A stretch of DNA of 25,407 nucleotides from a virus. Location: positions 1-25,407 of IMG/VR virus record IMGVR_UViG_3300027733_000187, one strand, 5' to 3'. The notes under the pieces were generated by a model. The model saw only the letters and a list, made by a program, of their open reading frames with translations, searched no databases and was not told the DNA's origin. The position numbers and the translations under genes were made by a program. Shown here in pieces: positions 1,092 through 14,533 of this stretch (position 1 is the stretch's first letter; the number at the start of each line of letters is the position of its first letter).

Positions 1092-2798
1092 TTATGCTAA
1101 TGGAGTTGGAGGTAATGGTTTCTTGAATTCAGCAGCGTATTTCTGCATGATTTGTTCCTGCTCAGTATATGCTAAATCTGCAAAGCCTTCCACTTCTGAT
1201 AAAGCTCTTGTTACAAATTTGCTGATATTTGCATGGATAACTAAATCTGCCTGGTCTACTGCTCCAAATGTTCTTTGCAAGCTAATGTTCTCTTCAGGTA
1301 CTCCTGCGAAAGGATCAAGTTTAAGTTTTAATATCACTAAGTCTTTTACTTTAGATTCGTTAAATTTCTTGTCTGCTAATTCAATCTGTGCTGCGTTGAT
1401 AATTGCAGGATCAACTTTTGCTTGTACCATAGATGTTAATTCATCTACTAATACTTTTCCACTAAGCATATCATAACGCTCAGGAACTGGGATATAAGGA
1501 AGCAATTCATTGATATCTATGTTCTGTGCGTAGTGCCTCCAAGCTAAGATATCATAGCAAACTTCATCCATGATTCTTACTATGTCCTCTGCAATAGAAT
1601 GCACGAAGCTGTAAAGCTCTTCTCTATCTACTTGCTTAGCAACTCCTGATTGAGCTATCGGTGTTTCAGCTAAGAACTCCATACTGATAGCACTTAATGC
1701 ATCGTAAATATGCTGTCTGATTCTTTCTTCTTGTAGTCGAGCAATCTCAGTTTGCTTCTGAACGTAGCCAATTGGAGGAGTAATAGCGTTATTCTCTCCA
1801 GCTTTTGGCATTGGCATAACTACATGCTCGAATGGATTCAATGGAAGCAATCCTTTGCCTGAACAGCTCGGACATGATATAGGTGCTGAGTTCTCTCGTG
1901 GAATCTCTCCCACTCCTTTACATCTTCCGCACTGCTGAGGCTGGATAGCCCACATAGTTGAGTGAATGTGCTGCACAATCTCAGCTTGCAAATCACTGTA
2001 CTCACGCACTGCTTCATTAAGCATTGGCACGATTCCACTGATACGAGATTCATATAGTGTGCAATGGTTGCCTTGTTGGACTACCATTCCGTTCATGTGG
2101 CGAACAGGTATGTAACCTAACACATTTGGAAACTGAAACACTTCACTTATCTTACCATTCTTCTCTTCAAATACTTGGAAGATATCAGGCTGAATCAAGA
2201 AGAATCTTCTACCATTAGTAAAGTAGTAATCATCTTCTTCATAGCTGAACATCTCTGCATCTTGTAACAGATAGAACTCGTTGATACGATAATCTAATAC
2301 CTGTGCTGATGTAAAGATTCGAGGATATGGTTTGAAGTATTCATTCTCTTGTATCTCATAATTAATAGGCATAGTTAATACCACAGCATTAGCATCTATC
2401 AAGTATGGTTTAAATGCCACGCTGAACATCCAATTAGTGATGCTACTGTTGCGAGGCAAGTCTTTCATTATGTACTTCTCAGGAGCTTCATCCTCCGCAA
2501 TAAATGCAGGAATATTAGTTGGGAAGCTTATCATCCAATCAGAAGACTTACGGATCTTCATCAAGCTGTTGTACACTTTCGTGAAAACTGGCTTAGTGAT
2601 TGGAGTGAATATCTTTTTACGATAGTTTTTAATTTCTTCACTCTCCGCTGGTCTGCGTTCTGATATCAGATCATCAGGAAATTCTCCATCAGCATGGATA
2701 GCTAACTCTTCAGCTAATTCTACTGCATCATGGTAGTATGAATGTCTGTATTTAGAACTTAAATACGGCTCAAGGAATGCTGGTGTTACTGCTGCCAT
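1092..2798 (-). CDS. Portal protein with a DnaJ-like zinc-finger insertion
   Basis: This 568-residue protein has the length of a siphovirus portal and lies directly before a Mu-F-like minor head gene. Portals form the dodecameric ring through which DNA enters and leaves the capsid. The central region (about 250-400) and the long helical C-terminus with phrases such as EIARLQEERIRQHIYDALSA fit a portal stem and crown. An unusual feature is a pair of CxxCxGxG knuckles at residues 290-297 (Cys290, Cys293) and 309-316 (Cys309, Cys312), the signature of the DnaJ central zinc finger. The start ATG overlaps the stop of the preceding glycosyltransferase gene as TAATG. The portal call depends on context plus general sequence character; an SPP1/HK97-type fold search would settle it. 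Confidence 0.75.
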   Translation of the reverse strand: MAAVTPAFLEPYLSSKYRHSYYHDAVELAEELAIHADGEFPDDLISERRPAESEEIKNYRKKIFTPITKPVFTKVYNSLMKIRKSSDWMISFPTNIPAFIAEDEAPEKYIMKDLPRNSSITNWMFSVAFKPYLIDANAVVLTMPINYEIQENEYFKPYPRIFTSAQVLDYRINEFYLLQDAEMFSYEEDDYYFTNGRRFFLIQPDIFQVFEEKNGKISEVFQFPNVLGYIPVRHMNGMVVQQGNHCTLYESRISGIVPMLNEAVREYSDLQAEIVQHIHSTMWAIQPQQCGRCKGVGEIPRENSAPISCPSCSGKGLLPLNPFEHVVMPMPKAGENNAITPPIGYVQKQTEIARLQEERIRQHIYDALSAISMEFLAETPIAQSGVAKQVDREELYSFVHSIAEDIVRIMDEVCYDILAWRHYAQNIDINELLPYIPVPERYDMLSGKVLVDELTSMVQAKVDPAIINAAQIELADKKFNESKVKDLVILKLKLDPFAGVPEENISLQRTFGAVDQADLVIHANISKFVTRALSEVEGFADLAYTEQEQIMQKYAAEFKKPLPPTPLA

Positions 2799-3625
2799 TA
2801 AATTACTTTTCTTTCACTTAGTTGGTTAAATTTTTGAGCAATTTTCATGCTCGGCATGTTCATCCTGAAGGATGCGTTTTTCGCAAGCTCATCATAAACT
2901 TGCATTTGTTGTTGAGGAATAAATTTACCTCCTACACTGAAAGCCATCCAACCTTTCTTAATAGCCATTGCTCCCGGAAATCCTTTCATCGCAGGCTGCC
3001 AATAGGTTGGCTGATATGGTGCTTGATGTGGCTGATGATTCACGCTAATCAGTGATAAATTAAAGTAAGGCTCATCAGGTCTATCTCCAGCGAATTCTCT
3101 TACCTTTAACTTGTTATCATCGTAGTACATCTCAGCATTAGCAAAGATAGTATAAGTTAAGTCATTTTTCTTGAAGTAAATCCATTCAGATGATAAATCA
3201 TACCACTGCTCTACTTCTCCATAAGCCTCTGCAATATCTTCTTTTGTGGTCCATTCGCTAATTCCTTTCACTATATCATCCTTGCCACGATTAGCCATAG
3301 TCCATTGGACCGTACTCATAGACCTCCAAAACTCGTTGAAGTTTGCCATCGGACTGAATATCATGTCTGCATCTACAAATAATGTTTCCTCGAAAGGACT
3401 CAACTCTGCAAGATGAAACTTATTCACTAATGGTTTCTCCACAGCAGGCTCGATGATGTGATCAAATATCATCCTTTGTCCAGGATGCAAATGTCTTAAT
3501 CCTTCTTCATCAGCAATCACTGCTACCTGAACATTCATATCCGCTGACTTAGCTGACAAAGCAAGATTGTAGGCATATCTGCCATACAATGGATGCTTCA
3601 TTGCTATTGTTACTATTCCTCTCAT
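2798..3625 (-). CDS. Glycosyltransferase-like protein (GT-A fold, DxD motif)
   Basis: The protein is 275 residues from the ATG at 3625. A TTG six bases further upstream is possible, but the ATG overlaps the preceding stop as ATGA and is preferred. Residues 1-90 look like a nucleotide-sugar-binding Rossmann-like half ending in the metal-binding motif FVDADM (Asp85, Asp87), as in GT8-type and related retaining transferases. The later part is rich in Trp/Tyr/Pro and has no motif I can place. The gene sits between a tail gene and the portal gene and is coupled to both, so it is expressed with virion genes. Likely targets are virion proteins or host surface sugars, but no substrate can be read from the sequence. 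It is one of three transferase-like genes in the window. Confidence 0.7.
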   Translation of the reverse strand: MRGIVTIAMKHPLYGRYAYNLALSAKSADMNVQVAVIADEEGLRHLHPGQRMIFDHIIEPAVEKPLVNKFHLAELSPFEETLFVDADMIFSPMANFNEFWRSMSTVQWTMANRGKDDIVKGISEWTTKEDIAEAYGEVEQWYDLSSEWIYFKKNDLTYTIFANAEMYYDDNKLKVREFAGDRPDEPYFNLSLISVNHQPHQAPYQPTYWQPAMKGFPGAMAIKKGWMAFSVGGKFIPQQQMQVYDELAKNASFRMNMPSMKIAQKFNQLSERKVI

Positions 3626-5256
3626 ATACAATTTTTGTTATACAATGTAGGCTCATTCTGTGCCATTAGAGCCACTTTCGATTGAGCAAGGTTATATTTA
3701 CCATTCTCACCCCATTCAGGCTCGTAATCCTCTGCAATGCAGAAGAACTGATTATTTTCTATTAGTAATGTATCTGATAATAATTGAAGTCTAATGACAT
3801 CATGAGTAGGCTCATCTACATAGTCAAACCATGCAGTTCTAACTTTTCCACTCTGAGCAAATGGTCTGCTCATTGTTCCATCTGAATACAAGTATTGTTC
3901 AGTTTTAACAGGATACATCGGATTGAATTGAAGCAATCTCAATCGCTGTCTTAATCTAAAGAATACATTTGATCCTGAAGCATTAAAGAAGAAACCAAAA
4001 GCATAGCCTTGATTAGTACCTTGTACCATTACTGAGCAGTCATGAGATCCTGTTGCCTTATAATTTACAATCGTATAAGATTGCGTAGTGATTCCTGCAC
4101 ACTCATCATCAATACTGATAGTGTAGCAATCAGAAGTAAGACTACCACCTGGCACATCACATGATTCTATACTATTCCAATCAAAGCACCATATCATTCT
4201 ATCTTTGTAGTAAGTAATTGGATTAGTAACACTACTTGAATCATACCAAATTGAAGCACAAGAGCCATCAGGATAAGTAACTGATATACGCTGATCGTAG
4301 CACATCTCTTCAAACTTGATGTCATAAATAACTCCATTCTGTGCTTCAGGATTAGCTAATATAAAAGGCTGTGCTGTTGCTCCTGAATATGTGAAGAACT
4401 CTGCAAACTCTCCATTCAAATAAGTCTTTGATAGTGTAGCATTCGCACTATCTTGAATCTCCATATAAGCAATGGTATCTTCAGGCATATTCATTACTTT
4501 GTAACTCAACTTATAGTCAGTTCCATTGATAATACTATTGAATATTGTCAAAGGATATGCAGTAGCTACTGATCCATCAATCTTTTGCCATCCATTTACT
4601 GACTCGACATAAGTCCAATGTGCATTCACGCTACTATTAGGTACTACGCATACTCCTGATGTAATATTTCTAATCTCTAAATTCTTAATCGTAACTGCTG
4701 AAGTATTGCAATAAAAAGCAAAATCTAAATTGATATAAGAACTAACTATCAAACATCTTCTTCCATCAATATTAGTTTCAAAGTTGTTTAATAAATTAAC
4801 GAAGTTCCAACTATTTGTAATAGCATTACCTAAACCAATTTTGAAATCTCCTCCATTATCATAAGTAAATTCAAAGCTGATTAAAAATACATCTCCAACT
4901 GCTCCTGGTAATGTTTGTCCTAAACCTATTTGAGATGCAGTAGGATCTGATGTTGCTCCATCAACAGTCCAAGTCCATGTAGTAGGTGCTCCTATTACAG
5001 TTCCTGTTGCAAAATTATACTCATTCCAATTGCTTAAGTCATTTGCAAAGCTTCCATTATTTACTACATCATTAAATGTAGTAATATCACAAGCATAAGT
5101 TGTTCCTACAGGCTCATTCATAAACTGAATGCAAGTAGTATCTCCAGCTTGTGCAAGTTGTGCATATGCTCTTGTATCATTATTTAAACAAGGCTGACCT
5201 GCGAATAAAGGATCTTCAAATAATATTGGTTGGTTAGGTATAAAACTAATTGCCAT
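3622..5256 (-). CDS. Distal tail/structural protein with carbohydrate-binding-like beta-sandwich domains
   Basis: This 544-residue protein lies downstream of the tape measure in the tail block. The N-terminus (1-55) is a Bacteroidota-phage-type leader with several cysteines. Residues about 64-200 begin with a phrase of the NGSFxxxLxxWxxY type and continue with alternating beta segments, typical of CBM4/9-like galactose-binding domains. A second similar domain spans about 210-320. The rest is beta-rich with scattered cysteines. Such domains at a tail tip would contact host capsule or outer-membrane glycans. It overlaps the preceding gene by 11 bases. No enzymatic motif is visible, so a binding rather than a cleaving role is inferred. 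Structural role is likely; the domain names are from pattern recognition. Confidence 0.6.
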   Translation of the reverse strand: MAISFIPNQPILFEDPLFAGQPCLNNDTRAYAQLAQAGDTTCIQFMNEPVGTTYACDITTFNDVVNNGSFANDLSNWNEYNFATGTVIGAPTTWTWTVDGATSDPTASQIGLGQTLPGAVGDVFLISFEFTYDNGGDFKIGLGNAITNSWNFVNLLNNFETNIDGRRCLIVSSYINLDFAFYCNTSAVTIKNLEIRNITSGVCVVPNSSVNAHWTYVESVNGWQKIDGSVATAYPLTIFNSIINGTDYKLSYKVMNMPEDTIAYMEIQDSANATLSKTYLNGEFAEFFTYSGATAQPFILANPEAQNGVIYDIKFEEMCYDQRISVTYPDGSCASIWYDSSSVTNPITYYKDRMIWCFDWNSIESCDVPGGSLTSDCYTISIDDECAGITTQSYTIVNYKATGSHDCSVMVQGTNQGYAFGFFFNASGSNVFFRLRQRLRLLQFNPMYPVKTEQYLYSDGTMSRPFAQSGKVRTAWFDYVDEPTHDVIRLQLLSDTLLIENNQFFCIAEDYEPEWGENGKYNLAQSKVALMAQNEPTLYNKNCI

Positions 5257-7177
5257 TATTCTTACTTATTAATTTGATAGTAGCCATTCCTCTTGTATGG
5301 TTATAGGTTAGTTCCGATATCCATCCTCTGCGATAAGGCTGACCATTCATGTTAAATTGCACTGTTCCGACTGTGTTTGCCATGATGATATCGAAATCAT
5401 CTTGACACATTGGATATTCCATCTCATAAAGATATAACGGAATATCAGTATTATCTACTGTTACAAAGATACCTCCACCGATTGAATTATCCACGCATTC
5501 TAATGATGAATTAGCCTCAAATTGAGCAGTAATTGCAAGCGTTGAAGCAGTCTTTTGAGCCTTAAATATTACATACCAGCCATCATTCAGGATCAATGGC
5601 CCAGTGAAATTATATCCTTGATTAGGATTAGCCTGACTCATTGTGATTAAGTTTCCAAATTGGTTATTGCTTTGCAATGTACCTCCAGCATCATAAATGA
5701 ATGCATAAATTCCAACCGTACAACTTTGCGTGCTTGTAGTGTATCCTGTGCTCGTTGCAGTTAATGCTATATTGAAATTGAATACTCCTGCAATAGGTGC
5801 TGTGAACTTATTCGCTCCATCAAAATGACTTCCATTATTGAAGATAACATTAGTGAAGTTCATCGTAGTTAACGCTCCAACAGCATAAGCAGTTAACTCA
5901 GTAGCTTGGAATTCGCCTTCTCCTTTCACTCCTGTGTACTGAGCTAAATCTCCTGGCAGTCCTCCACGATATCGGTTAAGAATGTAGCTATTAGTTAAGT
6001 TAGTATTGAAGTAATAATATATTGGCGGATTAATTAAACCTAAGTTGTTATAGTTCCATGTTTGGCCTGATGTAGGAGAGAAGTATTCGGTTTCAACTAA
6101 GAATAAATTACTATCATAATCTTGAGATCCATTTAAACTTTCAGCAATCACATTGCTGGATGTAGCCCAATCAGTGCCTAACTCAAGTGCTGTGTCGATG
6201 TTACATTCTCCTTGCACAATATACTCTTCAGGACCAAAGCCAAAGAAGTGTATCTGCTCAGGAAACAATCCTTGATCAGTTACTACACTACTTCCTACAT
6301 TAACTTTAGCGTATATACTTTTAGTATCTACTTTGCTGATGATTTCATATACATCCGATGCAGTAAAGATATTTGCATTGGTATATTGGTAATCTCTATT
6401 CTCAATTCTGATAGTCGGATATTCTCCATATGGATTCTCAACAATTAGTACTAATGGAATTCTGCGATTAATCTCATTGAATAAATCATCAAAGCTAAAC
6501 TGCGATTGACTAAAGTCATTAGTTCCGCTACCATTTCTAATATTGATACCTGTTGTAATGCATAGACCTTTCCATCCAAATCCCAATAGTGAGCCTTCCA
6601 TTTCATCAGTGAATGAAGTTGTCTGTAAGTAATCAGATGTAAACTGAAGTCTTCCATCACTCATAAACTTAATCAGGTATTCAAATGCATCATAAACTCG
6701 ATAGCAATTGACATCTGCTCGTGCAACACCTAAAGTAGAAATATCTAAAAAGTCCACTTGATATACTGGAGGAGTTGTTATGGTTACTCCATTCTTACTC
6801 TTACCTGAATCTAATGTAGTGCTGATGCTCTTATTGTTATTAATCATTGCAAAGTATGAGTTATCCTCAATCTTCACTGTTGCAGTGCAAGTCCTCTCAT
6901 TAAATTGGATATCTGACATAAATAAGTTACCACGCAATAATGTGCGGTAAGTGATTCCATCAGCACTTATTCTCACTTCAAATTTAATCTTAGTGCAATA
7001 GCCATCAGTACGAAGCTTTGTATATAAATAATCATAAGCTTCTCCAGTGAAATCGACATCAGTATCTTGATTAGCAAGTACTGAATTATACTCATAATCT
7101 CGCTTGATAGTTGTTTCGATTTCTTCCCATCCTTTGGGAGCATCAAATATTATATCATCTAAAAGAAACTGCATCAT
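5246..7177 (-). CDS. Distal tail/baseplate-like protein with an inserted C1q/TNF-like domain
   Basis: This 643-residue protein follows the tape measure directly, sharing ATGA with its stop (a second ATG at 7174 would give TGATG). The start MMQFLLDDIIFDAPKGWEEI and the region to about 120 look like a tail hub or Dit/Tal-like beta domain. Residues about 425-555 hold a phrase of the form FDGANKFTAPIAGVFNFNI, characteristic of a C1q/TNF-like jelly roll, which phages use for receptor or glycan binding. The frame resumes afterwards with a conserved-looking C-terminal domain that ends in a block resembling the N-terminal region in style, so the jelly roll seems inserted into the body of a baseplate protein. 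No catalytic residues are apparent. Position and size support a tail-tip role. Confidence 0.6.
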   Translation of the reverse strand: MMQFLLDDIIFDAPKGWEEIETTIKRDYEYNSVLANQDTDVDFTGEAYDYLYTKLRTDGYCTKIKFEVRISADGITYRTLLRGNLFMSDIQFNERTCTATVKIEDNSYFAMINNNKSISTTLDSGKSKNGVTITTPPVYQVDFLDISTLGVARADVNCYRVYDAFEYLIKFMSDGRLQFTSDYLQTTSFTDEMEGSLLGFGWKGLCITTGINIRNGSGTNDFSQSQFSFDDLFNEINRRIPLVLIVENPYGEYPTIRIENRDYQYTNANIFTASDVYEIISKVDTKSIYAKVNVGSSVVTDQGLFPEQIHFFGFGPEEYIVQGECNIDTALELGTDWATSSNVIAESLNGSQDYDSNLFLVETEYFSPTSGQTWNYNNLGLINPPIYYYFNTNLTNSYILNRYRGGLPGDLAQYTGVKGEGEFQATELTAYAVGALTTMNFTNVIFNNGSHFDGANKFTAPIAGVFNFNIALTATSTGYTTSTQSCTVGIYAFIYDAGGTLQSNNQFGNLITMSQANPNQGYNFTGPLILNDGWYVIFKAQKTASTLAITAQFEANSSLECVDNSIGGGIFVTVDNTDIPLYLYEMEYPMCQDDFDIIMANTVGTVQFNMNGQPYRRGWISELTYNHTRGMATIKLISKNNGN

Positions 7178-9519
7178 GATCTTCTAAGGTTTTGACCTCT
7201 TAATAATTCTTTAGCCATCGCTCTACCTATCATCCCAGCATTACCTACTTCAACTGTCTTATTCTTTCCAAGTGCTCTGCTCAATGCATAAGTATCAACG
7301 GAAGCAGTTACTGATTGTCTGCCACCTGATGAAGTTCTGCTCATCACGAAGTTATTAATCTCGGATGGACTAATCTTCTTCTCGTAGATGGCTTTGATAG
7401 TAGGATGATATGCTCTGTTAGTCTTAGTTGGAATCACTGCCTCACCTGGCTGAAGTATTGCATGAACTGAATCTCGGCCCATATCAATACCAGGTACTGA
7501 TAGAGTTCCTTTAGCAAATTGTGGAGGTCTTTGTGCTATGATTGTAGCTAAGTTTAATGCTCCTACTGTTGCCGCTAATCCGATTGCATATGGTACTAAG
7601 TTTGGAGGCTGAACTCCTAAAGCATTAATAATACCTTGAGCAATACCAATAGTTGCTGCTGAAATTTGAGCACGTTTATCAGCTTCCCATTGCTTTCGTT
7701 TTAGCTCTCTTAATTTTGCATTGTAAGTCTTTTCATTGACTAACTTCTTATCATATTGAGCTTGTAATTCACTAATCTCCTGATCAGTTTGTGCTCTTTG
7801 TAATGCAGCTAAGTTTTGAGAAATAGAAGAGATTGAATCAGCAACAAATTTAGCCGTAGCAATTCTATCTTGAGCGGCTTTTTCATCTGCTTTTTTCTGG
7901 TCATCTGCTTGTTTTTCTTTAGCTTTTAATTGCTTATCACCTTCTTCTACAACTGCTTCGGTTATTTGTTGGTTTAATGCTATTTGATCATTAGCATATT
8001 GAGCCTTAATTGCAGAGGTATCTTTTCCTGTTACTTCAGCATAATATACTTCTCGTGCATATTGCTCATCAAGAATATCCATCTGAACTTGTAACTCTGC
8101 AATCTTATTACCTTTAACTAATAATAATCTAGCACGATTCAATTCATCTTGAAGTTTTTTCTCAAGTGCAATTCTTTCTTTATTACGCTCTTGAACTCTA
8201 TCAGCTTCAAGCTTTCCTTCAGCATCCATTTCAGCAAATATTCTCTCCCATTGTTGCTGTCTTTCTTTCTCTGCTCTTTCACGTTCAGCTTTATTTTTTG
8301 CACTCTTTACTTTATTTTGTTCAGTTAACTTTTCATTTTTAGCTTTATTATCATTTATTTCATCAATATTTTGTTGCTGTATTTCATTTGCCGCAGTTTT
8401 ATTAATAACATTTAATTGCTCTTGAAGTGCCTGATTTGATTCTTTTATCTTAGCATTTTTTTCTTTTTCAGTTCTAAGTTGAGATTCAGCAGCAGTAGCA
8501 TTTGCTTGTAGTGCTTTTCTCAATTCGGGATCTCTTTCCTTAGCAGCATCAGCTCTTAATTCTCTAGCATCTTTTTCTAATTGAATAATTTTTTGATTGC
8601 TTTTTATTTGATCATCTGTTAAGCTTTTAGTTTTTTTACTTAACTCATCAGTATCTTCAAGTCTTTTAAGTTCTATTTTTTCTCTCTCTCCAGCTTGTTT
8701 AGATAATTCTCCGTTTGCAACTCGTAAATCAATAGCTGTTTGTTTTTCCTTATTTTTTAATTCAACAGTTTTTTTCTTTAAATCTGCTAATTCTTTTTCA
8801 TTTAATATAGCTTTATTCTGTTCTTGATTTAATAAAATATATGCACCAACAAGAGCACCAATGGCAGCTACTGCTAAGAATATTGGATTAGTAGCTAATG
8901 ATGCAGTAAATCCTTTTTGAGCTACTGTTGCTTCAGTAGTAGCTATTGCTTCAGCTTCTGTTGCTACAGTTAATGATTCCTGTGCTGCAGTGGTAAATCC
9001 AAGCACTATTTTTACATCCTGAAGTGATTCCTTTAAAGCACCAAATGAAGCAATTCCTTGCGTTATATTCAACGCACCTTGCAACTTCATAGCAAGCTCC
9101 TCCACTTCCTTGTTCTTCACTCCAAAGGCTTGTAATGCACCTGTAGCTACAGCGAAAGCACCTACTACTCCTTGAGCAAGGTTGCTAAATGCTTTTGCCT
9201 TAGCTTCAGGATTTAATAAGTTAACCTGGCGATTCAAATCGCCCATCTGATCAGCAAGTGCTCCAGCTTTAACTCTCGCTGCATTGGCTTCCTTACTGAA
9301 TTCTCCGTACTTCTCCGCTGCTTTCTGAGCCTCTTCTTTGGCTTGCTTAACTTGTGTACGTAAACTAACAAAGCCATCTCCAGCATCTTCTGCTGATTGA
9401 GATAGCTTGTCGAGTGAAGCTACTTCTTCATTAGTAACTTTATTTAGAGCTTTTAACTCATCGGTTGTAGTTTTGACATCCTTACTATCAATGTCAAATA
9501 CTATCTTGACTGTTTCCAT
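7174..9519 (-). CDS. Tail tape measure protein
   Basis: This 781-residue protein has the standard tape-measure layout. It has a short N-terminal domain, hydrophobic segments near 112-132 and 208-231, a very long charged coiled coil rich in Lys, Glu, Ala and Gln from about 235 to 600, and another hydrophobic stretch near 620-665. The C-terminal tail holds FAKGTLSVPGIDMGRDSVHA (668 onward) and PGEAVIPTKTNRA (from about 691), a closing block seen in many tape measures. The protein sets tail length and is ejected into the host envelope. At about 0.15 nm per residue it would correspond to a tail near 115 nm long. The start is TAATG-coupled to the small basic gene upstream. It has no lysozyme or peptidase domain. 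Confidence 0.9.
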   Translation of the reverse strand: METVKIVFDIDSKDVKTTTDELKALNKVTNEEVASLDKLSQSAEDAGDGFVSLRTQVKQAKEEAQKAAEKYGEFSKEANAARVKAGALADQMGDLNRQVNLLNPEAKAKAFSNLAQGVVGAFAVATGALQAFGVKNKEVEELAMKLQGALNITQGIASFGALKESLQDVKIVLGFTTAAQESLTVATEAEAIATTEATVAQKGFTASLATNPIFLAVAAIGALVGAYILLNQEQNKAILNEKELADLKKKTVELKNKEKQTAIDLRVANGELSKQAGEREKIELKRLEDTDELSKKTKSLTDDQIKSNQKIIQLEKDARELRADAAKERDPELRKALQANATAAESQLRTEKEKNAKIKESNQALQEQLNVINKTAANEIQQQNIDEINDNKAKNEKLTEQNKVKSAKNKAERERAEKERQQQWERIFAEMDAEGKLEADRVQERNKERIALEKKLQDELNRARLLLVKGNKIAELQVQMDILDEQYAREVYYAEVTGKDTSAIKAQYANDQIALNQQITEAVVEEGDKQLKAKEKQADDQKKADEKAAQDRIATAKFVADSISSISQNLAALQRAQTDQEISELQAQYDKKLVNEKTYNAKLRELKRKQWEADKRAQISAATIGIAQGIINALGVQPPNLVPYAIGLAATVGALNLATIIAQRPPQFAKGTLSVPGIDMGRDSVHAILQPGEAVIPTKTNRAYHPTIKAIYEKKISPSEINNFVMSRTSSGGRQSVTASVDTYALSRALGKNKTVEVGNAGMIGRAMAKELLRGQNLRRS

Positions 9520-9656
9520 TAACCTTGACCTCTTGAGAGTTTCACATAATGCTTGCTTGTCTTGAGCTTACTGCTCCTTTTTTTGGAATGCTTTCCTGGT
9601 CTGCTTACCTTTCCTTTTTTCCTGTATAAAGATACAACCTTAATCGCCTTTGCCAT
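9519..9656 (-). CDS. Small basic phage protein (45 residues)
   Basis: A complete short gene fits exactly between its neighbours: its ATG (9656) overlaps the stop of the upstream secreted-protein gene as TAATG, and its stop overlaps the tape-measure ATG as TAATG. The product is rich in Lys, Arg and Ser, with a centre reading KKGKVSRPGKHSKKRSSKLK. I recall similar short 'RPG-H-K-S-K' proteins next to structural genes in Bacteroidota phages, often without a name. The charge suggests binding to DNA, RNA or a packaged acidic partner. Function is unknown. Perfect coupling on both sides is the main support for a real gene. Confidence 0.8.
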   Translation of the reverse strand: MAKAIKVVSLYRKKGKVSRPGKHSKKRSSKLKTSKHYVKLSRGQG

Positions 9657-10840
9657 TATCTCTCAATCACTTTTTTAACTGATCCATCAGAGTATTGATA
9701 TATCTTTAAATTGCCTATTACAGTAATTTTAATCAAGTCAGGTACTTGAATGGATGGAGCAGTAGTCGTTGAATAGATAGTGCTGTAAACACTTCCGTAA
9801 GTGCCTGTGCTATTACACTCTCTTCTATATCTCCATTCATAGTTAGTATTCGCCTTTAAATTGGTAGCAATCCAATTATCAGTTGTATCTCCCACAATTT
9901 TAGTTGTCCAAAATGTTACTCCTGCCTTGCGATATTGTATCTTATATCTTACTCCACAGCTATCATCTACCCATAAGAACTTCAATGCTGTACTTCCAAC
10001 GCTATCCACTACCATAATTGGAAGATCACACTGGCATAAAGTAGTAAAGTATTTTGTTGTACTATATGCTGAAAGTGTAGTTCCATTGATGGAAGCAATT
10101 GCATACTCATAGTCTGTTGATGTAGTCAAAGCATAGATTATCTTGCTTGCCGTATCAGGCAAAGTGATGTACTTCCAAGTTGCTGCACCTACTGCACGAT
10201 ACATGATTTTGTATCCATTAGCACAGGTATTCTTGGTCCATGATAATGTTACTGATGTACCTTTCGGAACTCCTACTATATTGGTAGGAGATTTAAAGCA
10301 CTCATTAATGATAGTTGAAACCTTATAAACTGAATCGCCTGATGTGCCTCCATTATTATTAGCAGCCATCAACGCTCCACTCATCTTTACTTGTCCTGAT
10401 CCAAGAGCAGGTGCAACCCAATTCCATGACCATGATGATTGACTATTCCCACTTTGAGTATGTGTGATGTACTTCGTTCCTGTAATCTTAGTCTTAGTAG
10501 TATTAGTAACTATCATCGTGCCTTTATAGTTACCTAAGCTATCTTGAGGTGAAGCTTGAAATCCAAATCTCACATAAGTAGGCTTATTAACTGTAGCAGT
10601 GAATGTGTAAGTTTGTCCAGGTACATATCCAGTGCTTGGAATGTTACTCGTGATCTTCGCAATAGATGTATCTGCAAAGACTGCCGTTCCTGAATGACAT
10701 CCTGAATAAGCACATGATCGATAGTTAGATGCCTTATCATATGCATAGCCTGAAGGTGCTCCATCAGGAGAGCTGATGATGTTTTGTGTTAATCCTGCAA
10801 CAAGCAAGATGATTGCGATAAATGTAATTGTGTTTTTCAT
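9656..10840 (-). CDS. Secreted Reeler-like (choice-of-anchor V) protein with two fibronectin type III domains
   Basis: The product is 394 residues from the ATG at 10840; a TTG three codons further upstream is less likely. Residues 1-22 form a clear signal peptide (MKNTITFIAIILLVAGLTQ). A segment with Ser-Pro-Asp-Gly and a CAYSGCHSG motif (Cys43, Cys48, His49) and a beta domain to about 180 match the pattern of choice-of-anchor V/Reeler-like domains of Bacteroidota surface proteins, where a CxxCH-type motif is common; here the spacing is CX4CH. Two fibronectin III-like domains follow (about 184-268 and 272-360), then a short basic tail. It lies between tail fibre and tape-measure genes and is coupled to them, so it may be a virion decoration or a secreted adhesin. 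A signal peptide on a virion protein is unusual. Confidence 0.65.
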   Translation of the reverse strand: MKNTITFIAIILLVAGLTQNIISSPDGAPSGYAYDKASNYRSCAYSGCHSGTAVFADTSIAKITSNIPSTGYVPGQTYTFTATVNKPTYVRFGFQASPQDSLGNYKGTMIVTNTTKTKITGTKYITHTQSGNSQSSWSWNWVAPALGSGQVKMSGALMAANNNGGTSGDSVYKVSTIINECFKSPTNIVGVPKGTSVTLSWTKNTCANGYKIMYRAVGAATWKYITLPDTASKIIYALTTSTDYEYAIASINGTTLSAYSTTKYFTTLCQCDLPIMVVDSVGSTALKFLWVDDSCGVRYKIQYRKAGVTFWTTKIVGDTTDNWIATNLKANTNYEWRYRRECNSTGTYGSVYSTIYSTTTAPSIQVPDLIKITVIGNLKIYQYSDGSVKKVIER

Positions 10841-10841
10841 G

Positions 10842-11141
10842 TTATTCAACTATTTGCCAGTAAACTGTGCCGTTATCATTTATGTTAGTGCTTCTAATCT
10901 CGAAGCTAACTTGATTAATTGTGTTCGGTGCATAGATGTAAACATTGCCTATGGCCGTAGTGTTATCCTGATTCCTTGTTAAGATTACAGCCTTGCCAGC
11001 ATTGAAGTTAGTAACAGTTACTCTGCCTGCTGTCAGGTCTGCAAAGCCTGATGTTTCATAATTCACATCTGGAGTATCAGTGGATGAAATCTCTTGATTC
11101 ACTCCATCTTCTATCCATTCGTAAATGATATCCTTTCCCAT
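10842..11141 (-). CDS. Small structural-type protein of unknown function (99 residues)
   Basis: The ATG at 11141 follows the fibre gene stop after a single base (TAATATG), which favours it over a start 36 bases further upstream inside the fibre gene. The protein begins MGKDIIYEWIEDG and continues as a compact beta-rich sequence with many Thr, Asn and Val, ending VYWQIVE. It looks like a small fibre accessory or capping domain rather than an enzyme. It lies between the receptor-binding-type fibre gene and the secreted Reeler-like gene and is almost certainly co-transcribed with both. I do not recognise a family. Confidence 0.65.
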   Translation of the reverse strand: MGKDIIYEWIEDGVNQEISSTDTPDVNYETSGFADLTAGRVTVTNFNAGKAVILTRNQDNTTAIGNVYIYAPNTINQVSFEIRSTNINDNGTVYWQIVE

Positions 11142-11142
11142 A

Positions 11143-12972
11143 TTAGTAGTAATAATAAAATGCGATAGTTCCTCCACTATTGACTTCGGTAAGTGTTCCT
11201 GCTGTTGCAGGCAGTGTAGTGAATGCTAATGATTGACTAAAGGCTGCAAAGCCTACTGGTCCTATATTAGCCTGACCTTTGATGTCAAAGATAGATGCAC
11301 TTGATTGGCCTGTGATAGTTCCTGATGCTGCATTACTAAAGTAAGCAAACCAGTATAAACCTTTTGTCAAGGCCACTGATAATCCTGTAATAGACCTTTG
11401 TCCTGTTGAGCCATCTAAGGCAACAGTTCCAGCATCTAATAATCTAGTCAATGGTTGAGTAGTGGTAGGATCATTAGTATAAATACCAAGTCTGCAAAGT
11501 GAAGCAGCAGGTCCTAATGTATTAACATTGATTCCTAATCGAGTTATAGTTATATCATTGTCAAGTAGGAAAGGCACATATCTTATAGCTCCATTAACAT
11601 TACCAAACGATGCATTACCTAAAGGAAGCATTCCATTTGTGTACCATCTTGAAGCTTTACGAAACTGACCATATCCCACTTGCTTATTGTTGAATGTACT
11701 CCAATCAGTTGTATTCAATGCACCTCTGTTAGTTGCTGATGCCGTTGGAAGATTGAAGGTATGAGTAGTACCTGTCGATGCAATATTAAAATCAGTTCCG
11801 CTTCCATTAGTAGCTAATGTCTGAGCAGCTCCTGTTAATGAATTGATAGCAGTGATACCTGTGCCTGCCATAATACCACTCTGCTGTGTTATAGTGAGTA
11901 TAGTAGATTGTATAGCAGGATGTGGATATGGACTTGTTTGAATAGATTCAGAGTATATAGACATATTAGCATCAGCACTTGCCCAATATAATTCTATAAT
12001 ATCTCCTGCTACCAATTGAATAACATAATTCCAAGCAGCCATCATATATGCTGGTGAATTACCTTGTAAAGATAAATTACCTGCACTACTTGGGATATCA
12101 GTTCCATTTCTTCTTAACCAAAAGTTTGCAATATCAACACCTGAATCACTCTTATCTAATTGAGAAGAGAACTGTAAATTATAAATTCCTGTATTAGCAA
12201 CAACAATCTCAGAAGTCATTGTTCCTGTATATGTAGCAGATGTCCTAAGTTGAGAAACTGATACTACATAAGTACCTATTCCTCCTGTACCACTTGTAAA
12301 TGCAGATATAAAAGTTCCTGCTGTTATACTACCTCCTGTTAATACCATGCCCACCTTTAATGTTCCAGATGTAACACTTGTAACATTTAATATAGTTCCT
12401 GCTCCTGCACCACCATTATTTATAGTTCCTGTAAATACAGCAGTTTGTGTTTGTAATGAAAATCCATTAGCTAAATCAGTAGTATCAAATTTTACTGCTC
12501 TTGGAGTATTTGCAGTTGGATTATCTTGTGTTGTAGAATCTGAAATTGCTAAGTAGTAACCTGTCGGAGTTGCAGCAGGTTGAGCTGTCCACTTTAATCC
12601 TGTTGCAGTAGAACTATCTGCTACTAACATCTGCGTATCTAATCCTACTGGAAGCCTTGCATCAGCACTTGCATCATGAGTATAAATATCTCCTTTCGTA
12701 GTTAACGGAGATGAGCCTCCTCCTGCATAGCTATCAATGATTGCTTGAATTGCTGCAAGTACTGTAGCCGCTGATCCTGTTGGAGTAGTGAAGTCAGTGT
12801 ATGCTATGGTCCATGATTGGCGGTAAGCATTGTTCTCAACTCGATGAGATGTGAATACAATGTACTCACCTTGCAACTCTACTGAGCAATAGCATTTCTT
12901 GTAATAATAACTACGCAAGCCATCATTCAATTCTACTTCCGTAGCACTATAGTCAGTTAGTGAGTAGCTCAT
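11143..12972 (-). CDS. Tail fibre/receptor-binding protein built from mobile phage modules
   Basis: This 609-residue protein is a mosaic. Residues 1-85 form an attachment domain. Residues 89-129 carry [10 protein letters not shown]...RLPVG...GLKWTA, a module found in fibres of many unrelated phages. Residues about 150-362 form a jelly-roll-like domain (with WLRRNG and AAWNYVIQL) interrupted at 177-252 by a Gly/Thr-rich beta-repeat module ([32 protein letters not shown]). Residues 405-431 hold [19 protein letters not shown], another widely shared fibre motif that often marks a trimerisation boundary. The C-terminal 170 residues form a second beta domain ending in a run of tyrosines, a probable receptor-binding head. 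It would sit on the tail tip and bind the host surface. No catalytic site is visible. Confidence 0.8.
12217..12444 (-). other. Inserted beta-repeat module inside the fibre gene (codons 177-252)
   Basis: This in-frame block encodes a Gly/Thr/Val-rich unit of about 76 residues, from [10 protein letters not shown] to TYTGTM, between two halves that read as one jelly-roll domain when it is removed. The unit matches a pattern I recall in many viral fibre and structural proteins (short strand, VTSV-SGT-L-VGM, GTGG-GTY-VS-SQ). It is annotated separately because it appears to be a mobile protein module. Confidence 0.55.
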
Positions 12973-12973
12973 A

Positions 12974-13309
12974 TTAGATACTTAATGCTCCTACGATTAA
13001 TGTATAAACTGCTCCTACATCTAATGTAGTTCCATTCATGATATCAAAATATTCTCCTGCTGAAAATGATATCTGTACATTCTGATATGATAATTCAAAT
13101 AATTCTGCAGAGCCTGAAACTTGATTATTGATTAAAGTTAAGCTAACTGCATTTGCTGGAAGATAATAACTATATGCAGTAGTACTATCTCCTGTTGATG
13201 TATCAGTGTTATAATTATCTACTACTTCATAACTAAAATTTAAAAATCCGTTTGCTACTGTTGCTGCAAAGTTTTGAGCTCCTTTTGCGTATGTTATTGA
13301 TGCTGGCAT
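12974..13309 (-). CDS. Small structural-type protein of unknown function (111 residues)
   Basis: The protein starts [20 protein letters not shown] and is beta-rich with many Thr, Ser, Asn and Tyr, ending in a hydrophobic strand [11 protein letters not shown]. The composition fits a small virion beta-sandwich such as a tail or fibre-attachment protein. It lies directly between the tail assembly chaperone and the fibre gene, whose ATG follows its stop after one base (TAATATG). It has no signal peptide or coiled coil. I do not recognise a named family. Confidence 0.7.
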
Positions 13310-13326: not shown

Positions 13327-14081
13327 TTATTTGTCTTGTTTATATGTGTGTTCTAAGAGAAGCATATACTCCCACAGCGTTAATTTGTTACAATTTACTC
13401 CATACCTCTGATTCAGTATGGTCCTTTGAATGAATCCATTCTCCGCATTCTTTGCCATCACATATCCTGCAGCTTCATCAATTGATGCCCCGCCACCTTG
13501 TCTATCACTGACAAACATATCGCTAAATCTTGCTCTGATAGCGTTGGCAACGGTACTATATCCTTTAGCTGCATCACGATAAAAAAATCATTGACATCTC
13601 CTGCCTCCTTCCAGCGTTTGATTTTCTCTTTCGCATACTCAGGATCATAACTGTATGGACTCTCATTCTTATCGAAGAATGCAACCGATGCAAACTTATA
13701 AATGAGGTCCGTAGTAGGTACTACGAAATCCAATCTCTCTTTAAGCATCGATACTATCTTCCACAACTCACTAACCTTAATCTGCTTCGGATCATTTACA
13801 ATCTCATCGAATCGCTCAATGAATGTCTGTAAGTGTTCCTTCTGAAGCCTCATGTTCCACTCTTCGTACACCTGGAGTGCTGTCAGTCCTCGACTTGAGA
13901 AGGTATTAAAGTAATCCTTCAATCGATAGTACTGAACTCCGTTACTAATAAAGGCAGGCTCAATCACATGTCCTTCTTCTAACTGCCAAACTGTTTTGCC
14001 TGTTACCTTAGTAGATAACTTAAGCCATGCGTTTTTCGTAGTAATCTTTAACTTCTTGAATCGCTGTTTCAATCTTTCCAT
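13327..14081 (-). CDS. Tail assembly chaperone, -1 frameshift fusion product (G-T type)
   Basis: Joined reading: codons 1-167 of the frame starting at 14081, then a -1 slip on T_TTT_TTT (13587-13581), then 84 codons from TAT at 13581-13579 to the stop at 13327, giving 251 residues. The -1 frame is open from the slip site and reads YRDAAKGYSTVANAIRARFS before reaching the overlapping ATG at 13518. That upstream 21-codon stretch is protein-like and would be wasted without frameshifting. The C-terminal part continues with GFIQRTILNQRYG and ends LWEYMLLLEHTYKQDK. In lambda and most long-tailed phages, gpG and gpG-T made by a -1 slip chaperone the tape measure during tail assembly, and the two-frame layout here matches. 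It is encoded upstream of the tape measure, though fibre genes intervene. An independent 63-residue protein from 13518 is the alternative. Confidence 0.75.
13458..14081 (-). CDS. Tail assembly chaperone, unshifted product (G type)
   Basis: This is the zero-frame product of 207 residues, ending QLMKLQDM. The N-terminus is basic (KQRFKKLKITTKNAWLKLS), followed by a helical middle. Near 136-170 is a block reading FFDKNESPYSYDPEYAKEKI and then WKEAGDVNDFF, which I associate with a conserved Bacteroidota-phage protein encoded near tail genes. The slippery heptamer lies at codons 165-167 (Asp-Phe-Phe). As in lambda gpG, the short form should be made in excess over the frameshifted form. Its first 62 bases overlap the end of the preceding small gene; no later ATG before codon 77 gives a better start. 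The role is inferred from the frameshift architecture and location. Confidence 0.75.
   Translation of the reverse strand: MERLKQRFKKLKITTKNAWLKLSTKVTGKTVWQLEEGHVIEPAFISNGVQYYRLKDYFNTFSSRGLTALQVYEEWNMRLQKEHLQTFIERFDEIVNDPKQIKVSELWKIVSMLKERLDFVVPTTDLIYKFASVAFFDKNESPYSYDPEYAKEKIKRWKEAGDVNDFFIVMQLKDIVPLPTLSEQDLAICLSVIDKVAGHQLMKLQDM
13581..13587 (-). promoter_or_regulatory. Programmed -1 ribosomal frameshift site, T_TTT_TTT
   Basis: Seven consecutive T residues on the coding strand lie in the exact phase X_XXY_YYZ relative to the zero frame (GAT TTT TTT ATC). Both frames are open across the site, and the -1 frame runs on for 84 codons. Downstream there is only a weak inverted repeat (CGTT-GCC-AACG about 33 bases later), so a strong stimulatory hairpin or pseudoknot is not evident. 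Confidence 0.75.
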
Positions 14082-14241
14082 ATCTTTTTATTCCATTGTA
14101 AATCAATTCCCATCTATTCCACTTGTCAAGCTTGAACTCATGCCCATCAGGATGCTTCCATCTGTAAGCCTTGCTCATACAAGCACATCTGCCTCGTGCT
14201 CTATAACCTATGCTTAATAGGTAATCATTAATATCCGTCAT
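14020..14241 (-). CDS. Hypothetical protein (73 residues)
   Basis: The ATG at 14241 is chosen over an adjacent upstream TTG. The protein reads MTDINDYLLSIGYRARGRCA and then has an aromatic/basic core (YRWKHPDGHEFKLDKWNRWE) and a helical C-terminus. The even spread of Trp, Tyr, His and charged residues looks like a folded protein rather than a chance frame. It overlaps the membrane-protein gene upstream by 14 bases and the chaperone gene downstream by 62 bases, a larger overlap than elsewhere in the window. No family is recognised. A small cytoplasmic accessory protein is all that can be said. Confidence 0.65.
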   Translation of the reverse strand: MTDINDYLLSIGYRARGRCACMSKAYRWKHPDGHEFKLDKWNRWELIYNGIKRYGKIETAIQEVKDYYEKRMA

Positions 14242-14533
14242 CAATTAGCTTCTTATATATGATTGTGTTCACTGCTGCCAATGCACAAATATAAAGAACT
14301 GCCTGAATTATAGCAGGAACTAAATCACTCCAATCAATGAATCCTATCAGATATGGCCAGCTATGAACGGAAGCCATGCAAGTTACACAACCTGCAATTG
14401 GCATCCACATCTTGCCCATGTATTCCTCGCCTAAATCATTCAACTTCTCGAAGATCATTCCTTCTTCAAAGGCTAATCTCAATCCGTTAATGTAAAGAGA
14501 ATTGAGTAATAAGAATAATAGTGTCTGTTCCAT
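14228..14533 (-). CDS. Small integral membrane protein
   Basis: This 101-residue protein has a hydrophobic N-terminus (MEQTLLFLLLNSLYINGL), a middle motif GCVTCMASVHSWPYLIGF (about 48-65) that may pack a pair of cysteines at a membrane face, and a long hydrophobic segment at about 71-93 (VPAIIQAVLYICALAAVN). The CxxC-MAS pattern recalls small membrane proteins with a conserved cysteine pair, such as DUF1360-type proteins, but I cannot make that assignment firmly. It is TAATG-coupled to the structural gene upstream. A holin or superinfection-exclusion role is possible; its location among tail genes rather than by the endolysin argues for caution. Confidence 0.65.
   Translation of the reverse strand: MEQTLLFLLLNSLYINGLRLAFEEGMIFEKLNDLGEEYMGKMWMPIAGCVTCMASVHSWPYLIGFIDWSDLVPAIIQAVLYICALAAVNTIIYKKLIDDGY

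Follow-up and report, generated by a model that had tools for sequence, protein, structure and literature searches.

Do two overlapping reading frames in a stretch of viral DNA encode two unrelated proteins, or are they joined by programmed -1 frameshifting into the products of a tail-assembly chaperone gene? The question arose from IMG/VR record IMGVR_UViG_3300027733_000187 (positions 1-25,407; the whole 25,407-nt stretch of virus DNA is referred to as the window), for which a first-pass annotation had proposed that a slippery T_TTT_TTT heptamer fuses the two frames. The G-T frameshift is conserved in long-tailed phages despite low sequence similarity, and a -1 G/GT layout combined with a position before the tape-measure gene is considered a hallmark of tail-assembly chaperones (reviewed in PMC5009743). 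Based on the comparisons below, we regard it as very probable that the window carries a real -1 programmed frameshift and that the gene concerned, in a tailed phage with a probable Bacteroidota host, encodes a tail-assembly chaperone of the gpG/gpGT type.

Table 1. Features of the frameshift gene and its neighbourhood in the window.
Feature	Coordinates	Strand	Remarks
Zero-frame ORF (gpG-like product), 207 aa	13458..14081	-	Start codon by prediction; in 42 close and 39 distant relatives
Slippery heptamer T_TTT_TTT (Asp-Phe-Phe)	13581..13587	-	In-phase GAT TTT TTT ATC; conserved in relatives
T-like domain added by the -1 frame, 84 codons and a stop codon	13327..13581	-	Begins at the re-read last T
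Dual-coding overlap, 40 codons, alternative zero-frame C-terminus and -1 frame	13461..13580	-	Both frames conserved, wobble variation reduced
TGGAAGGAGG, Shine-Dalgarno-like, possible stimulator	13604..13613	-	Invariant in close clade, 16 nt before heptamer
74-aa gene (family F23), conserved, overlaps frameshift-gene start	14020..14244	-	Directly 5' of frameshift gene
Gene for the tape-measure protein (781 aa), first core tail gene downstream	7174..9519	-	Weak PHROG matches; conserved position
Decoration/fibre genes, clade-specific insertion between frameshift and tape-measure genes	9519..13309	-	Tail/fibre, K1-lyase C-terminal and Fn3 matches

Re-reading of the ORFs confirmed all coordinates of the first-pass annotation (Table 1), including the heptamer at 13587-13581 in its slippery phase, the 84 open codons of the -1 frame and the lengths of the unshifted (207 residues) and fused (251 aa) products, the latter being read in the zero frame up to the heptamer and then in the -1 frame to 13327. 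In the -1 frame, a TGA lies immediately 5' of the T run, after which no stop occurs as far as 13327.

Both the slip site and the frame behind it are conserved. Of 45 close IMG/VR relatives (63-100% identity), 42 reach the slip site, and all 42 possess an in-phase TTTTTTT followed by A together with an open -1 frame, complete fusions measuring 238-256 aa. In each of the 24 sequences compared, TTT encodes both Phe residues and the codon before them ends in T, even where Ser (AGT) replaces Asp; elsewhere in the gene, TTC is common. More distant phages (~40% portal identity) were reached through a portal-based search, and a profile search located the gene in six of their records (G010-G014, G016), all of which have T9 at the position homologous to the window's T7. 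The alignment built from these six genes retrieved 114 IMG/VR relatives in one scan, 80 of which were kept. The 39 distant loci examined (roughly 26-43% identity, some near-identical to each other) all have an in-phase T_TTT_TTN at the corresponding codons (31 with T9, one with T10, one with T8, six with T_TTT_TTC), and in each the -1 frame stays open over 86-113 codons. The -1 domain was alignable over 48 sequences and has a conserved end, T/S-[hydrophobic]-x-[E/D]-[YF], while F166, F167 and P177 are invariant in 52 zero-frame sequences, P177 lying past the slip site. The expectation that homologues would keep heptamer and frame was thus borne out at both distances (42/42 and 39/39). The first-pass annotation had named two patterns that would speak against a fusion, namely homologues with two separate genes and no slip site, and a lack of conservation in the 21 codons that lead from the slip site to the ATG. 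The former was found in none of the 42 close and 39 distant relatives examined, and the 21 codons, which had been described as protein-like, proved to be conserved, unlike the ATG.

Codon statistics point the same way. By our own arithmetic, the chance of 84 open codons at a stop rate of ~11% per codon is ~6e-5, with conservation not yet counted. Across ten related genomes, -1 extensions behind other in-phase T7 runs within genes span 0-17 codons, as compared to always 83-89 at the site in the frameshift gene. Summed over 24 close relatives, the 100 codons before the slip site hold 261 -1-frame stops, the overlap and the -1-only part none. The pN/pS ratio is 0.26 for the zero frame in the 100 codons upstream of the slip site and 0.30 for the -1 frame in the -1-only part. 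Upstream, variation among the close relatives is highest at zero-frame position 3; it is reduced in the overlap, and after the zero-frame tail it is highest at the -1 wobble position. Since the zero-frame tail (IVMQLKDMLPLPTLSEEDL..CL.VID) is likewise conserved among close relatives, ~28 codons are under double constraint, from the zero and the -1 frame. These figures show purifying selection on the zero frame upstream, on the -1 frame downstream and on both in the overlap.

What, then, is the gene's likely role? Gene order was compared over nine related records and runs from terminase, F3, F6 (membrane) and F23 (74 aa) via the frameshift gene and variable fibre/decoration genes to the tape measure, followed by F9, F10, F11, portal, a MuF-like gene, F14, the presumed major capsid protein, F26, F15, F16, F17 and the lysis genes. 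The tape-measure gene directly follows the frameshift gene in G010-G014, G016 and most distant loci, and a single small gene lies between them in G005 and G006. The first-pass annotation had found it unusual that fibre genes separate the two. This is true of the window, yet the intervening fibre/decoration genes are clade-specific insertions, and the HK97 moron gene gp15, placed between frameshift gene and tape measure, provides a precedent. F17 is presumed to be the major tail protein, the head genes having likewise been named from their order and our reading of the sequences; none of these names comes from a family match. With this candidate, a guess from position, located in the head module, the order major tail protein-G/GT-tape measure is not contiguous. 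The possibility of another G/GT pair behind F17 was considered and rejected, as lysis genes are found there.

The proposed gpG/gpGT arrangement gains support from the tape-measure gene directly downstream in distant relatives and from comparative evidence for a zero-frame product and a -1 fusion with a common N-terminus; the chaperone role itself we assign from position and architecture. In common with lambda gpG/gpGT, the locus has two products, one start, a late -1 frameshift and an adjoining tape-measure gene, and HK97 gp13 and its frameshift product likewise involve a -1 join upstream of the tape-measure gene. However, there is no detectable sequence similarity to the lambda proteins, and the slip site is a T run. 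Moreover, lambda G and T, as annotated, share only 19 bases, whereas in the window 40 codons are dual-coding and the alternative G tail is conserved, and, in contrast to lambda, the major tail protein gene is apparently not adjacent.

Searches with the frameshift product gave no significant match in Pfam, PHROGs, NCBIfam or PDB sequences, and no similarity to lambda gpG (hhalign probability 0.1%). Six chaperone queries had no tblastn match in INPHARED, nor did one query among plasmids; in INPHARED, the portal was also without a match and the terminase had distant matches only. The profile search suggested by the first-pass annotation returned no significant family match, and its companion expectation, a conserved slip site and frame, was found in the relatives. 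An initial AlphaFold model from a shallow alignment was set aside (pLDDT 47), and a 52-sequence alignment yielded a model (pLDDT 75, pTM 0.61) with a predicted N-terminal helix, a beta hairpin and a helical core. Foldseek found no match to the latter at E <= 0.001. The HK97 chaperone 2OB9, ranked second in the PDB (E = 3.7, TM 0.18), and four named tail assembly chaperones among the viral top 15 (E 0.3-1.8, query-normalised TM < 0.3) were not significant, and the appearance of such proteins among the top matches of a predicted structure may be read as a hint only.

The frameshift could be real and its products nonetheless virion components or some other assembly factor rather than tape-measure chaperones. 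This would fit the absence of homology or fold matches to known chaperones, as well as the separation of the tail module from the head module, but it sits poorly with the position directly before the tape-measure gene and with the -1 G/GT layout across relatives, and we deem it decidedly unlikely. Most likely, we are dealing with a new family of G/GT-type tail-assembly chaperones. By analogy with lambda we infer the protein partners of the G-like and fusion products: the N-terminal part common to both products would coat the tape-measure protein, with recruitment of the major tail protein falling to the -1 domain.

As to how the chaperone fusion might arise, most ribosomes would read T_TTT_TTT in frame and produce the G-like protein, whose 207 aa include a 40-residue tail that the fusion lacks. 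In a minority, the tRNA-Phe in both the P and the A site would shift back by one base and again pair with UUU UUU, and the product would be the 251-aa fusion, which includes the T-like domain. The slip site, the selection on both frames and the tape-measure linkage are shown by the sequence comparisons, and the ribosomal mechanism and the frequency of the event we infer. Sequence comparison places the heptamer in the X_XXY_YYZ form, in phase and conserved, that marks -1 programmed ribosomal frameshifts. The U_UUU_UUC-type tandem slippery heptamer of bacterial insertion sequences is among the listed natural motifs (PMC4066793); the T-run sites of these elements are alike in heptamer type and differ in gene, product and role.

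Alternatively, RNA polymerase might add one U (or drop two) at the T run, and ribosomes would not slip at all. Programmed transcriptional realignment usually involves homopolymers of eight or longer (PMC3711429). Such lengths are found in most distant relatives (T9, plus one T10 and one T8), and no conserved RNA structure that could act as a stimulator was found downstream of the heptamer. However, only the T8-T10 relatives have ~eight or more A/T at the junction: T7 is kept in 42/42 members of the window clade that reach the site, the six distant T_TTT_TTC (T6C) loci retain a long -1 frame, and the run is invariably in X_XXY_YYZ phase, which makes purely transcriptional slippage improbable. 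Given that six members have six T's and the window clade seven, both below eight, the sequences argue for ribosomal slippage as the simplest common mechanism, with transcriptional slippage possible in T8-T10 members. A mixed arrangement, one family with two recoding modes, ribosomal at T7 and T_TTT_TTC and mainly transcriptional at T9/T10, in which the conserved zero-frame tail would have a separate job and not be a mere prefix, also appears unlikely.

A candidate stimulator of ribosomal slippage lies upstream. In the close clade, CGC TGG AAG GAG is synonymously invariant, with two members encoding Lys for Arg, and AAGGAGG (within TGGAAGGAGG) is part of an invariant-column run (shuffle P = 0.016). 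The element resembles a Shine-Dalgarno stimulator, albeit at a slightly too large distance from the heptamer, and was not kept in distant relatives. As Shine-Dalgarno-like elements are, in addition, little used by Bacteroidota, we treat it only as a lead.

That the -1 ORF is instead an independent gene starting at an internal ATG (13327-13518) with no fusion, as its entry as a 63-aa ORF in a mechanical ORF list might suggest, is hardly credible and was rejected. Many relatives have CTG or TTG in place of the ATG, and no ATG occurs in the -1 ORF of the L010 group or of many distant relatives (some of which have no GTG or TTG either), so that separate initiation cannot explain the -1 ORF. In addition, conservation in the -1 frame extends 5' of the ATG as far as the slip site.

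With respect to the host, the window encodes a primase-like protein that matches BT4734-like_N, and Phage_int_SAM_5 integrases are present in two prophage-like relatives. We take both to be typical of Bacteroidota, and it is on this ground that Bacteroidota are the probable hosts. When GTDB genomes were scanned twice with narrow peptide patterns, no relatives emerged, so the hosts can be deduced only indirectly. A Bacteroidota-type promoter pattern had 0 matches against 1.2 expected, a difference too small to be informative, and our literature search on this chaperone family in Bacteroidetes, Bacteroides or Flavobacterium phages returned nothing relevant.

Position and recoding thus identify a widespread candidate chaperone family, with 114 IMG/VR matches in one scan. 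As searches of Pfam, PHROGs, NCBIfam and the INPHARED phage records yielded no match, annotations probably list such genes as two unrelated hypothetical ORFs, or miss the -1 part where it lacks a start codon. An FF-encoding T run ahead of the tape-measure gene offers a searchable signature for annotating these phages. Besides, the family supplies a long dual-coding overlap and a natural slip-site series (T6C, T7, T8, T9, T10) at one homologous junction, with which ribosomal and transcriptional slippage could be tested against each other.

Some further observations concern the frameshift gene and its neighbours. The first 62 nt of the frameshift gene (14020-14081) are also read, in another frame, as part of the F23 gene, so that the frameshift gene is overlapped at both ends. 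In L007, L008 and L041-L043, no similarity was detected to the first 12-13 residues of the frameshift gene, whose start codon is uncertain. L018 carries a mosaic version (5001-5666), L038-like in its N-terminal and L010-like in its C-terminal part, which suggests recombination inside the gene, 5' of the slip site. Also 5' of the frameshift gene, at 14228-14533 of the window, both close and distant relatives share a gene for a small membrane-like protein with a conserved C-x-x-C-M motif (GCVTCMAS in the window). A 111-aa ORF at 10842-11177 matches the K1 capsule lyase C-terminal domain (PF24146, 1.1e-12) and overlaps the end of a 609-aa fibre gene by 35 nt, the equivalent pair in G009 overlapping by only 4 nt. 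Finally, a conserved protein of ~280 aa, encoded between the baseplate genes and the portal (2798-3631) and also present in distant relatives (e.g. G011, G013, G016), resembles, on our reading, a nucleotide-sugar transferase.
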